Part shown: in pieces, positions 30,068 through 34,051 of the stretch
Layout of the letters: the number at the start of each line of letters is the position of its first letter
Position numbering within the stretch: position 1 is the stretch's first letter
DNA from: Reyranella sp. CPCC 100927
Lineage (GTDB): Bacteria > Pseudomonadota > Alphaproteobacteria > Reyranellales > Reyranellaceae
Direction: 5' to 3'
Assembly: GCF_007859315.1 (NCBI RefSeq)
Contig: NZ_VOHA01000002.1
Location: 186,001-250,000 of the forward strand
DNA: 64,000 nt
Program-made: the position numbers and the translations under genes
The notes under the pieces: generated by a model
Seen by the model: the letters and a program-made list of their open reading frames with translations, nothing else
The model's database searches: none
Told to the model about the DNA's origin: nothing

Positions 30068-30200
30068 TCCTTCCTCCCCCAACGCAGTTGGGGGAGGTGC
30101 CCAAAGGGCGGAGGGGGAGCCGACGTGGTCTCAGTTACAGAGATCTCGTCGGGTCCCCTCCGCCCCTTCGGGGCACCTCCCCACTGCGTGGGGAGGAAGA
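30068..30200. repeat. REPIN-like composite palindrome
   Basis: Two roughly 55-base arms (30068-30123 and 30145-30200) are imperfect inverted copies about a short centre. Each arm also forms its own small hairpin (CCTCCCCCAACGCAGTTGGG and a matching CTCCCCACTGCGTGGGGAGG). The layout of paired inverted REP units is that of REPIN-type elements. The right arm overlaps the 3' end of glcF and supplies its last about 20 codons. Confidence 0.7.
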
Positions 30201-31550
30201 TAATGCGAAGCCCTTGCCCTCCAGCGCCGCCGGTAATGGCCCGCCGGTGACCCAGTCCAGCAGCTCGACGGTGTGGGCGATGGGGATCGCGGTGCCACCG
30301 CCGATCTGGCCGATGCAGCCGAAATTGCCGGCGGCGATCAGGTCGGGCGCGGTGCGAGCGATGTTGGCGACCTTGCGTTGGCGCAGCGTCAGGGAAAGAT
30401 CGGGCTGCAGGACCTGATAGGTGCCGGCCCAGCCGCAGCACAGGTGGCCCTCCGGCACGTCCTTCACCACGAAGCCGGCCGCCCGCAGCAACGCCTTGGG
30501 CGGCTCGGTGAGCTTCTGACCGTGCTGCATCGAACAGGCGGCATGATAGGCCACCACCAGCGGCGTGCCGTCGGCGCGCACCGGCTGCCCGACCGGCCGC
30601 AGCCCGGCCGGCGCCAGCACCTCGCTGACATCCTTGGCCAGTGTCGCCACCGTGGCCGCGGACTGGCGCCACTGCGGGTCCTCGGCCAGCAGGTGGCCGT
30701 AGTCCTTCAAGGTCGTGCCGCAGCCCGACGCGTTGGCAACCACGGCATCGAGCGGCCCCTCGAGGTCGTCGACCCAGGCGGCGATGTTTTCCCGCGCCAG
30801 GTCACGGGCCTGCTCGCGCGCGCCGACATGCAGGACCGACGACCCGCAGCACCCCGCGCCGGCAGCGATCACCACCTCGATCCCGTGCCGGGTCAACAAC
30901 CGCACCGTGGCTTCGTTGACCTGGGGCGCCAGCACCTGCTGGCCGCAGCCGTTCATCAGCGCCACGCGCTTGTGGCGCGTGCCCTCGGCCGCGAAGGTCT
31001 GCGGCCGGTCCACCGGCGATGGCGGCGGCAGCGGCACCGGCACCGCGTCCAGCATGGCGCGCAGCCGGCGGCCCACCGTGGCGCCGCCGACATCGCGGCT
31101 GGTATCGGGCAGCAGCCGCGCCAGCGGCTTGGCCAGTTGGCCCAGCACCAGCGACCAGCGGAACAGGCGCGGGCTGGGCATCAGCACGCCCAGCAACCGG
31201 CGCAGCAGGCGATCGCCCAGGGGCCGGCGATAGGTGTCCTCGATATGCGTGCGCGCGTGATCGACCAGGTGCATGTAGTTCACGCCCGACGGGCACGTGG
31301 TCATGCAGGCCAGGCACGACAGGCAGCGGTCGACATGGCGCGCGTCCTCGGCGGTGGCGGCGCGGCCCTCCTCCAGCATGCGCTTGATGATGTAGATGCG
31401 CCCGCGCGGGCTGTCGCGCTCGTCGCCCAGGGTCACGTAGGTCGGGCAGGTCGCGGTGCAGAAGCCGCAATGCACGCACTTGCGCAGGATCGTGTTGGCC
31501 GTCGCGATATCGGGTTCGGCGAGCTGGGCCGGGGTGAAGGCGGTTTGCAT
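30135..31550 (-). CDS. glcF: Glycolate oxidase iron-sulfur subunit GlcF
   Basis: Two 4Fe-4S motifs lie in the N-terminal part (CVHCGFCTATCPTY about residue 26; CLSCLACMTTCPSGV about 77), followed by two CCG domains (GCCGSSVLHVG; HLCCGWAGTYQ). This is the electron-transfer subunit of the membrane-associated glycolate dehydrogenase, working with GlcD and GlcE. The natural end would fall near ALEGKG. The last about 22 residues (SSSPRSGEVPRRGGGDP..) are the translation of a palindromic repeat. Confidence 0.93.
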   Translation of the reverse strand: MQTAFTPAQLAEPDIATANTILRKCVHCGFCTATCPTYVTLGDERDSPRGRIYIIKRMLEEGRAATAEDARHVDRCLSCLACMTTCPSGVNYMHLVDHARTHIEDTYRRPLGDRLLRRLLGVLMPSPRLFRWSLVLGQLAKPLARLLPDTSRDVGGATVGRRLRAMLDAVPVPLPPPSPVDRPQTFAAEGTRHKRVALMNGCGQQVLAPQVNEATVRLLTRHGIEVVIAAGAGCCGSSVLHVGAREQARDLARENIAAWVDDLEGPLDAVVANASGCGTTLKDYGHLLAEDPQWRQSAATVATLAKDVSEVLAPAGLRPVGQPVRADGTPLVVAYHAACSMQHGQKLTEPPKALLRAAGFVVKDVPEGHLCCGWAGTYQVLQPDLSLTLRQRKVANIARTAPDLIAAGNFGCIGQIGGGTAIPIAHTVELLDWVTGGPLPAALEGKGFALSSSPRSGEVPRRGGGDPTRSL

Positions 31551-31675: not shown

Positions 31676-33022
31676 TCACGCCAGCCTCCCGCGGCTGAAG
31701 ATGCCGGTGGGATCGAAGCTCTCCTTCACGCGGTGGCTGAGCGCCACCAGCGCCGGCGAGCGCGGCTGGAACACCGGCACACGCGCCCGCACCGCCTCGG
31801 GTGCCCGCACCAGGGTGGCATGCCCGCCGGCCAGCGCCGCGCGCACCACGACATGGGCGCCATCGTCGCTGCCGGCCGCGTCGAGCGACAGCCAGACCAG
31901 GCCGCCCGACCAGTCGTACAACGCCTGCGCATCGGGCCGTCGCTCACGAATGGCGGCGACGACCCGGGCGCCGTCGGTCGGCGGACAGGAGATCTTCCAC
32001 AGCAGGGTTGCCTCTGACGATCGTGCGTCGGAGCCCCCCTCCCGTCGGCGCTGCGCGCCGCCGACCTCCCCCACAAGGGGGGAGGTGGATGACTCATGCC
32101 CCCTCCCCCCTTGTGGGGGAGGGTTGGGGTGGGGGGTTCCGGTGGGAGGCATGAGACCCACGTTGCGCACCTCGTCCCAGAAGGCGCGCGAGCGCATGGT
32201 GTGCAGCTCTTCCAGCGCCGGCGCCGACGCCGCGAATTGCGCGCGCAGCGCCTGCAGGCGGGCGGCGACCGAGGGTGCCACGCCCTCGACGCGGATCGCG
32301 GTCACGCTGCCGCCCTGCTGCGCCACCAGGTCGACGCCGCTGCGCGCGGCGAGCGACGCCGGCAGGTGCGCCGCCCCGCTCACCTCGTGCGGGCTGCCCA
32401 TGGCATCGCACAGCGCGGCGACGGCGGCCTGATCGTCGAGCCCGACCAACAGCAGGGTGTGCACCTTCTCCGGCGCCGGCACGACCTTCACCGTGATCTC
32501 ATCGAGTGCCGCCAGCGTACCCAGCGAGCCCGCCATCAGCTTGGAGAGGTCGTAGCCGGTGACGTTCTTCACCATCTTGCCGCCGGCCTTGAAGGGCTCG
32601 GCGCGGCCGTTGACGCCCTGGAAGCCCAGGAAGTGATCGCGCGCGGCGCCGGCGGCGATGCGGCGCGGGCCGGCGAGATTGCACATCAGCACGCCCGCCA
32701 GGCTGCCCTCGCCCGGCGCGCCGCCCAGGATGGCGCCGAGGTCGGGCGGCTCGAAGGCCAGCATTTGGCGGCGCTGCGCCAGCAGCGCCTCGACCTCGCG
32801 CAGCGCCGTGCCGGCCCGCACGGTGATCACCAGCTCCTCGGGCTGGTAGTCGACCACGCCCTCGATGCCGGCCAGCGACAGGGTGTGCGCGGCGGTATGC
32901 GGCGGACCATAGGCGCGCTTGCTGCCGCGCCCTTCGATGTCGAGCGCCACGGCATCGTTCAGCGCCCATGCCACGGTGCGCTGCAGCTCGCCGGCGTCGC
33001 GCGGTTTCAGAAGGACAGTCAT
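31676..33022 (-). CDS. glcE: Glycolate oxidase FAD-binding subunit GlcE with in-frame repeat insert
   Basis: The PCMH-type FAD domain is complete: VTVRAGTALREVEALLAQ, FEPPD, the motif GSLAGVLMCNLAGPRR and MVKNVTGYDLSKLMAGSLGTLA. GlcE supports flavin and electron transfer for GlcD. At 448 residues it is longer than usual because about 45 extra residues (PHPNPPPQGGRGHES..SPLVGEVGGAQRRREGG, about 295-340) interrupt the C-terminal part between NVGL and LLWKISCPP. The insert is two palindromic repeats translated in frame (32033-32137). Flanking family sequence resumes without frameshift, so the protein is probably functional. Confidence 0.9.
   Translation of the reverse strand: MTVLLKPRDAGELQRTVAWALNDAVALDIEGRGSKRAYGPPHTAAHTLSLAGIEGVVDYQPEELVITVRAGTALREVEALLAQRRQMLAFEPPDLGAILGGAPGEGSLAGVLMCNLAGPRRIAAGAARDHFLGFQGVNGRAEPFKAGGKMVKNVTGYDLSKLMAGSLGTLAALDEITVKVVPAPEKVHTLLLVGLDDQAAVAALCDAMGSPHEVSGAAHLPASLAARSGVDLVAQQGGSVTAIRVEGVAPSVAARLQALRAQFAASAPALEELHTMRSRAFWDEVRNVGLMPPTGTPHPNPPPQGGRGHESSTSPLVGEVGGAQRRREGGSDARSSEATLLWKISCPPTDGARVVAAIRERRPDAQALYDWSGGLVWLSLDAAGSDDGAHVVVRAALAGGHATLVRAPEAVRARVPVFQPRSPALVALSHRVKESFDPTGIFSRGRLA
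32033..32137. repeat. Two palindromic repeats inside glcE
   Basis: Unit 32033-32087 and unit 32097-32137 are back to back. The second is base-for-base identical over 41 bases to the repeat at 33576-33616 (core CCCCCCTTGTGGGGGAGGG). Together they keep the glcE frame open and add about 45 codons. Confidence 0.85.
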
Positions 33023-33543: not shown

Positions 33544-33572
33544 GGATTCGATCGTTATCATTCCACGCCGCC

Positions 33573-33968
33573 TCATGCCCCCTCCCCCCTTGTGGGGGAG
33601 GGTTGGGGTGGGGGGTCTGCCGGCAGGGCCTTGGCGATCTCCTCAAGAACGAAATCGGTGCGCTGGAAGACATCAGCGTTCCAGAACCGCATCACGCTGA
33701 AGCCCTGCGAGATAAGCCACGCGGTCCGACGTTCGTCATAGTCGTGGCGATCCTCGGCGTGCTGCCCGCCGTCGAGTTCGACAACGAGCTTCGCACCCAG
33801 GCAGACGAAATCGACAATGTAGCGCCCGATGGGCGCCTGTCGTCGAAACCGCCAGCCGTTGAGGGTGCGCCGCCTGAGCGCGTACCAGAGATGCCGCTCG
33901 GCATCCGTCATGTCTCGACGGAGGCGTTTGGCGCGCGTGATGGAAATCGAAGGCGTGGACGTGGGCAT
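33573..33968 (-). CDS. DUF559 endonuclease-like (Vsr/PD-(D/E)XK fold) protein
   Basis: This 131-residue protein contains TRAKRLRRDMTDAERHLWYALR, RRQAPIGRYIVDFVC and LVVELDGGQH, then RTAWLISQGFSVMRFWNADV. These are DUF559 hallmarks; the D...ELDGGQH part is the PD-(D/E)XK-like core. The last residues (PPPQPSPTRGEG) come from the palindromic repeat that also forms the left end of the flanking element. An ATG at 34001 would add 11 residues. The gene is bracketed by inverted copies of the repeat, which makes a mobility role attractive but unproven. Confidence 0.85.
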   Translation of the reverse strand: MPTSTPSISITRAKRLRRDMTDAERHLWYALRRRTLNGWRFRRQAPIGRYIVDFVCLGAKLVVELDGGQHAEDRHDYDERRTAWLISQGFSVMRFWNADVFQRTDFVLEEIAKALPADPPPQPSPTRGEGA

Positions 33969-34051
33969 AGGCGACCTACCGCTTTGCGCAACCAGCAGCA
34001 TCGTCTGTGGAGGCCCCCCTCCCCAACCCTCCCCCACAAGGGGGGAGGGGG
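33576..34051. mobile_element. Candidate mobile unit: DUF559 gene between inverted palindromic repeats
   Basis: The left repeat 33576-33616 and the right repeat 34013-34051 are inverted near-copies (about 39-41 bases, core CCCTCCCCCACAAGGGGGGA on the right). They enclose only the DUF559 gene. The unit lies between the divergent hdeA-like gene and the end of glcD and separates glcD from glcE. No target-site duplication could be recognised. The same repeat, without the gene, is inserted in glcE. Confidence 0.5.

Follow-up and report, generated by a model that had tools for sequence, protein, structure and literature searches.

The window, a stretch of 64,000 nucleotides from Reyranella sp. CPCC 100927, contains a DUF559 gene that lies between two inverted near-copies of a palindrome. 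This cassette is probably a REPtron-like unit, in which inverted cognate palindromes of the BoxC type flank the gene of a small nuclease, the Vsr-like PD-(D/E)XK protein DUF559, which would spread pairs of these palindromes in trans by cutting their hairpins.

The DUF559 cassette and other palindromes of the window

The cassette is located on contig C12 of the 9.08-Mb genome. The features of the window are:

33573..33968, minus strand: DUF559 (PF04480) nuclease gene, 131 codons from the ATG at 33968
33572..33618, plus strand: left palindrome arm, C-rich hairpin outside, G-rich box inside
34011..34051, minus strand: right palindrome arm, inverted, 95% complementary to the left arm
32093..32137, plus strand: palindrome copy inside glcE, 45 nt identical to the left arm (33572-33616); the ORF stays open
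32034..32086, minus strand: second inverted palindrome in glcE, the other half of an inside-out pair
about 30073..30196, no strand assigned: inverted pair of a second palindrome family, resembling the family around the DUF559 gene at C28; second half recognised by eye

In a profile search the window protein matches PF04480 with an E value of 1.1e-43; a further match, to MTES_1575, lies under the cut-off of that model. The upstream ATG at 34001 is a possible alternative start. The gene has glcD on one side and a small ORF on the other; the names glcD, glcE and glcF are those that we presume for these window genes. The two arms that bracket the gene (33578-33618 and 34011-34051) are 41 nt each, 95% complementary and 392 nt apart, in agreement with the preliminary description, which had the gene enclosed by inverted near-copies of a palindrome. 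In both arms the outer part is a C-rich hairpin and the inner part a G-rich box. The left arm encodes the last codons and the stop of the DUF559 ORF, the stop codon being supplied by the CTCATG of this arm, which is also present in the glcE copy. The palindromes of the window give seven overlapping matches at four places, against 0.09 expected, and a search of the whole genome for the 21-nt core of this family (family 1), with at most 3 mismatches, finds 28 sites against 0 for the reversed pattern. A chance origin of the window palindromes is therefore excluded.

The copy inside glcE had been described as identical and alone. The identity extends over 45 nt, but a solitary copy is rejected, as a second palindrome lies only 16 nt away: the cores at 32065-32085 and 32102-32122 form an inside-out pair, with the hairpins facing each other. 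This arrangement (32034-32137) differs from the other family-1 pairs that were printed, and it keeps the glcE frame. The congeners G290 and G155 do not have the inside-out pair in their glcE, and by pattern none of 29 relatives, these two included (L176-L204), has a palindrome inside glcE. The glcD-glcE gap of four relatives (L178, L179, L180 and L182) holds other palindromes, as if it were a recurrent landing site. Elsewhere in the window, the pair at 30073..30196 overlaps the 3' end of ORF 30135-31550.

Three DUF559 genes and three palindrome families in one genome

The genome contains three DUF559 genes, none of which lacks bracketing palindromes, and the palindrome family differs from gene to gene. 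The 28 sites of family 1 form 13 pairs, one round the gene and one inside-out, and two singles; the 12 gene-less pairs have the same ends as the cassette. Family 3 is larger, with 44 sites (reversed pattern 0) that form 21 pairs and two singles. Its 20 gene-less pairs are spaced 152-159 nt and the gene-enclosing pair 477 nt, and in six pairs that were printed the spacers vary from copy to copy while the spacing barely changes. A pattern that covers both family 1 and family 2 occurs at 92 sites in the genome, against 0 for the reversed pattern; 12 of the 92, which are family-2-like, cluster within 31 kb of contig C11 (G000, 3.1-33.8 kb). Each repeat family has one gene and many repeats, a relation to be read with the proviso that drafts may collapse identical copies.

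The hairpins of family 3 retain a G-G mismatch in 42 of 44 cases, and one pair of the stem is A-T in 22, G-C in 18 and broken in 4. Because the conserved mismatch is unforced and the stem pair alternates between A-T and G-C, a compensatory change, the folded form of the family-3 palindrome seems to be under selection. Neither GTAG nor GTGG is present within 12 nt outside the core at any of the 24 ends of 11 family-1 pairs and the cassette. Just outside this core TCAT is found at 11 of the 24 ends and TTC at 16, perhaps as a guide or target motif; it is the TCAT beside the core that provides the stop codon of the window gene.

Bracketing of DUF559 genes across bacteria

Bracketing by inverted palindromes is more widespread than the preliminary description saw. 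In a class-wide set of 289 genomes, 84 of 122 usable DUF559 genes are bracketed, against 4 of 372 control intervals, and a hairpin stem of at least 9 on at least one side is present at 111 of the 122 loci, against 38 of 372 controls. These genes derive from 124 listed places with E <= 1e-20, two of which were dropped for short flanks. The other 38 loci stay under the bracketing threshold; at some of them there is an inverted pair, but to one side of the gene only. A second set of named genomes from several phyla, comprising the best 80 of 549 protein-search matches with three dropped for short flanks, gives bracketing at 53 of 77 loci and, for control intervals taken from these loci, at 1 of 240. 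The palindromes are therefore enriched beside DUF559 genes in both sets, which overlap slightly (L071/L146 and L066/L156 bear the same arms). In this final census the genes were re-placed and N was counted as a mismatch. A first pass on the second set, with three of the 80 loci too near a contig edge, had given 55 of 77 against 6 of 1155, an N-run artefact (L116) being among the 55, and an earlier count of 19 of 32 against 3 of 336 includes three mis-framed edge loci.

The arms of the 137 bracketed DUF559 loci have a common polarity, the outer third being mostly C/T in 114 and the inner third in 2. Their box variants are CCCTCNCCC (69 loci), CCTCCCCC (16), CCTTCYCC (11) and others (41); the window arms belong to the CCTCCCCC variant. 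Across ten named genomes, all of them DUF559 carriers, matches of the palindrome pattern number 9 to 365 per genome and those of the reversed pattern 0 to 2. Among named plasmids, with 12 of 45 listed, the palindrome was seen beside DUF559 in all four that were read by eye, the hosts being Azospirillum, Synechocystis, Deinococcus and Sphingomonas. At a Xanthomonas locus (L137:9850-9980) the left palindrome beside DUF559 appears to be interrupted by an unrelated GC-rich stretch.

Co-occurrence of DUF559 and palindromes in genomes

At the level of whole genomes, at least three palindromes are present in 67 of 72 genomes with a strong DUF559 match and in 27 of 217 others (p 4e-37), where a strong match is one with E <= 1e-20, a cut chosen after the list was seen. 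If instead any match up to E 1e-3 is accepted, at least three palindromes occur in 72 of 97 carriers and in 22 of 192 other genomes (p 6e-27). Of the 3670 palindrome copies that a single pattern finds in the 289 genomes, 3314 fall in the 72 genomes with strong DUF559. The reversed pattern and a within-family comparison served as controls. The former gives 100 matches across the 124 genomes with at least one forward match, a single genome accounting for 68; in the latter, copy number is higher in carriers than in non-carriers in 25 of 29 mixed taxonomic families, lower in 3 and equal in 1 (CMH p 1e-6). Repeat number thus tracks DUF559 both across and within families, a favourable outcome of a test named in the preliminary description. 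It had also named abundant repeats in genomes without DUF559 as evidence against itself. Such genomes form a minority, at least seven palindromes being present in 16 of the 217 without strong DUF559; conversely, 5 of the 72 with strong DUF559 have fewer than three.

Y1_Tnp is the transposase family of RAYT, the spreader of REP palindromes, and of IS200/IS605. In the same genomes it shows no association with the palindromes (21 of 60 against 73 of 229, p 0.65), and RAYT was for this reason rejected as their spreader. The three Y1_Tnp genes of the window genome (L140, L141 and L142) lie elsewhere than the DUF559 cassette. By eye they have GC-rich inverted repeats of their own, GCGGGCGTCCCGCCCGC-like in L140 and L141 and CGCCGCTCCAGCGGCGC in L142, which look like a separate REP-like system.

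Empty sites and mobility

In one genus with four genomes, three could be matched at the flank of a cassette. In G263 two genes are separated by 707 nt, taken up by the cassette and its palindrome doublets; the spacing of these genes is 26 nt in the other two genomes, which have neither DUF559 nor, by pattern, palindromes. At the site of the window cassette, glcD directly adjoins glcE in the congener G155, and the congener G290 has the small ORF there, together with a repeat pair of another, CGTC-like kind. The empty sites that the preliminary description had proposed to look for are thus found at both loci. Insertion of the cassette is the simplest reading of these alignments. No target duplication was found in them, as the flanks have diverged too far to reveal one.

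Several vehicles and related readings were rejected. In the 31 genomes that hold several strong DUF559 genes, no two of these exceed 88% identity, which argues against recent multicopy transposition of the gene, although drafts may collapse near-identical copies. A phage or plasmid vehicle is disfavoured by the rarity of relatives of the window protein in plasmid records (45 of 72,556) and phage records (3 of 50,697). A reading as a defence system was likewise discarded, since the PADLOC and NCBIfam models concerned are far longer and match weakly, over part of their length only.

GIY-YIG genes as a second nuclease-palindrome pairing

Because the congener G290 has a CGTC-like repeat at the window site, GIY-YIG genes were examined in the same way. 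A GIY-YIG gene (PF01541) is present in 186 of 192 genomes. Seventy loci (L350-L419) were taken, 30 of them the best-ranked and 40 from the next-ranked, with five near-edge places passed over; six were dropped as cut by an edge. Inverted palindromes bracket the small GIY-YIG gene at 34 of the 64 usable loci, against 1 of 492 controls. These palindromes, for example at L356, L361, L362, L368 and L401, are mostly of the CGTC type (GTCAT...) or resemble TTCATCCTGAGC...GTCGAAGG. According to the part of survey PMC3733652 that is available, CGTC repeats seem to be without a dedicated transposase.

Sorted by type, the palindromes at the 34 bracketed GIY-YIG loci are GTCAT in 18, TTCAT/TCGA in 9, other in 6 and BoxC in 1, and those at the 137 bracketed DUF559 loci are BoxC in 122, other in 8, TTCAT/TCGA in 6 and GTCAT in 1. 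With the 'other' class left out (6 GIY-YIG and 8 DUF559 loci), this amounts to 27:1 for GIY-YIG against 7:122 for DUF559 (Fisher p 9e-23), under a sorting rule that was written after the first 24 GIY-YIG loci had been seen. The 15 odd DUF559 arms are by eye still mostly C-rich, and the sorting is therefore conservative. These counts mean that the nuclease fold predicts the palindrome type, unlike what is expected if the nuclease gene were a passenger.

In the passenger view, the spreading is the work of a different enzyme (RAYT or a host process), with DUF559 as cargo between two copies. This view would fit the presence of Y1_Tnp genes in the same genome, the large excess of gene-less pairs over cassettes, and the genomes that have palindromes without DUF559. 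We consider it unlikely, since it is DUF559 and not Y1_Tnp that follows the palindromes, also within families, and since the Y1_Tnp genes of the window genome are without the DUF559-type palindrome. Moreover, DUF559 lies beside the same palindrome type in unrelated phyla, and GIY-YIG genes carry other types.

Relation to BoxC repeats and E. coli ycjD

The DUF559 member of E. coli K-12 is ycjD (PF04480, E 1.4e-49). Two palindromes lie beside it, CCCTCACCCTAACCCTCTCCCC...GGGGCGAGGG and a second one, and the first of these is number 9 of the TMECO sites among the BoxC/PIT/TMECO repeats in the available text of PMC4666352. In that text the BoxC pattern is given as CCCTCNCCCN3-6GGGNGAGGGN3GGGNGAGGG, and the repeat is described as found in E. 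coli in the 1990s, with 23 copies in K-12 and 3610 in 262 proteobacterial genomes; no activity that could provide mobility was found round the repeats, and the same text contains neither the word ycjD nor any word starting with "nuclease" (PMC4666352). The copy beside ycjD has the box layout CCCTCNCCC-loop-GGGNGAGGG-N3-GGGNGAGGG, from which the window arms differ (CCTCCCCC). The palindrome type appears to be the known BoxC/PIT/TMECO repeat, and the DUF559 partner is the new part. The preliminary description, which knew of no account of such a system, had not recognised the palindrome type as a described repeat. In the parts available of the full-text literature, with subscription papers and preprints outside it, no paper was found that ties DUF559/YcjD or GIY-YIG nucleases to repeats.

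At least 80% of the ycjD stretch is present in 3364 of 5426 E. coli genomes. Sixty matches were sampled evenly down the match list and one plasmid-sized row was dropped, which left 59 chromosomes. The 37 with ycjD have a median of 22 palindrome places (14-30) and the 22 without it a median of 7.5 (2-23; p 2e-8), a comparison that is confounded by lineage; some of the latter keep 11-23 places. K-12 itself scores 22 places, near the published 23. A clean empty site at ycjD was sought in E. coli and rejected, as an efflux operon fills the slot in two ycjD-less chromosomes that were read. In the fabI-sapF interval (L327, L348 and L349) ycjD and this operon appear as alternative occupants of one slot, and the available part of a 2026 paper (PMC12817139) also has an efflux operon there.

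The DUF559 protein

Among 57 DUF559 sequences the invariant residues include E29, D58, E69 and D71. The nearest solved chains are 3hrl, an "Endonuclease-Like Protein" (E 8e-41), and 3r3p, a "Mobile intron protein" (E 9e-4), which we take to be I-Bth0305I, a homing endonuclease with a Vsr-like fold. PDB matches with E >= 0.3, to enterotoxin B chains and PvuRts1I, were taken as chance. Because of the homology to a solved nuclease and the conserved acidic core, DUF559 is assigned by sequence to the PD-(D/E)XK nuclease superfamily. A 2005 study, whose first author is reportedly Kosinski, linked YcjD with Vsr (PMC1189080, accessible part). The Vsr model TIGR00632 itself, with a cut-off of 97.85 bits, gives 13.9 and 29.2 bits for two of the three proteins and no match for the window protein.

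DUF559 evolves under purifying selection, as judged from a median dN/dS of 0.16 over 39 pairs, which are non-independent and from which five saturated pairs were dropped. Arm likeness follows protein likeness (Mantel rho 0.23, p 0.001, 133 loci), a correlation in which common descent and co-evolution are mixed. Below 50% protein identity the arms of paralogues in one genome resemble each other no more than do those of equally similar proteins from different genomes, the values being 0.360/0.360, 0.405/0.389 and 0.383/0.409, respectively, and above 50% identity pairs from the same genome have more similar arms. In a paired test of paralogue arms, 23 fit better elsewhere and 29 worse (p 0.28).

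The kinship with 3r3p raises the possibility that DUF559 is itself a homing endonuclease, which cuts palindromes or the spacers of pairs and has its own gene inserted by repair, so that the palindromes would be targets and not cargo. The cassette does resemble a pair whose spacer contains the gene. However, with a maximum identity of 88% in the 31 multi-DUF559 genomes, where drafts may have collapsed copies, the gene seems not to multiply at palindromes, and homing appears distinctly unlikely to us. Very unlikely, in our view, is a role of DUF559 as a Vsr-type repair nuclease that is kept since palindrome hairpins or G-rich folds cause mismatches and breaks: the conserved mismatch of family 3, the reported tie of TMECO sites to instability (PMC4666352, available text) and the proposal of Caulobacter VsrA, a DUF559 protein, as a Vsr repair enzyme (PMC12907096, available text) would suit it, but it leaves unexplained why the gene sits between inverted copies and why the arms track the protein.

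Proposed mechanism and comparison with known systems

That DUF559 genes of very different bacteria mostly have such palindromes at their side, with more of them dispersed over the genome, makes DUF559 a strong candidate for the agent that spreads BoxC repeats. Gene-less inverted pairs would spread in the same genome in dependence on the DUF559 nuclease, acting in trans. Most likely DUF559 would recognise the folded hairpin, either in single-stranded DNA at replication or as a cruciform, and would nick it at the hairpin base or at a bulge. The broken hairpin could then serve as the start of repair or replication by which the pair is copied elsewhere. HUH enzymes cut and rejoin DNA via a tyrosine, whereas PD-(D/E)XK enzymes only cut; to our knowledge the latter hydrolyse DNA and do not join ends. 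A repair step or a helper would therefore be needed, and it is for this reason that we propose nicking of the hairpin, with the host completing the process by repair or replication.

RAYT with its REP/REPIN repeats has a characteristic anatomy, comprising a single-copy gene, cognate hairpins and gene-less pairs. The DUF559 cassette shares with it the small single-gene unit within inverted palindromes, the recurrence of these palindromes as gene-less inverted pairs, and the presence of one gene per repeat family. The REP/RAYT-like logic with a different nuclease, as proposed in the preliminary description, is thus borne out in layout by the bracketed gene and the gene-less pairs; that DUF559 is the spreader we infer, as it did. 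In contrast to RAYT, DUF559 is a Vsr-like PD-(D/E)XK protein and not an HUH tyrosine enzyme, so that the cassette gene falls outside the HUH/Y1 class. Its palindrome is of the BoxC type, with GTAG at 0 of 24 family-1 ends and no link to Y1_Tnp. A further likeness is the stem mismatch, which is conserved in some families, as the bulge of the E. coli REP matters according to the available part of PMC8266576.

As regards BoxC/PIT/TMECO, the K-12 copy number 9 adjoins ycjD, and the repeat as published was described without a mobility partner in the available text of PMC4666352. Vsr, VsrA and Vsr-like homing endonucleases are assigned to the same superfamily as DUF559, and bracketing by palindromes is unmentioned in the available parts of PMC1189080 and PMC12907096. 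The cassette is also comparable to MITEs, in that gene-less derivatives share the ends of the gene-bearing element. It differs from the MITEs of insertion sequences in that a transposase was not identified and near-identical gene copies were not seen among the 31 genomes.

Implications

A broader generalisation, to which we give somewhat less than even chances, is that palindrome superfamilies are each spread by a nuclease of their own: GTAG REPs by the HUH enzyme RAYT, BoxC repeats by DUF559 and CGTC repeats by GIY-YIG proteins. Three unrelated folds, two of them hydrolytic and dependent on the host to finish the reaction, would then have converged on the copying of hairpins. If DUF559 is the agent of BoxC, a repeat and a protein family, both orphans so far, would account for each other, and E. 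coli K-12, which has ycjD and some 23 copies, would allow a test. It would also follow that ordinary hydrolytic nucleases, and not HUH transposases alone, can spread short palindromes.
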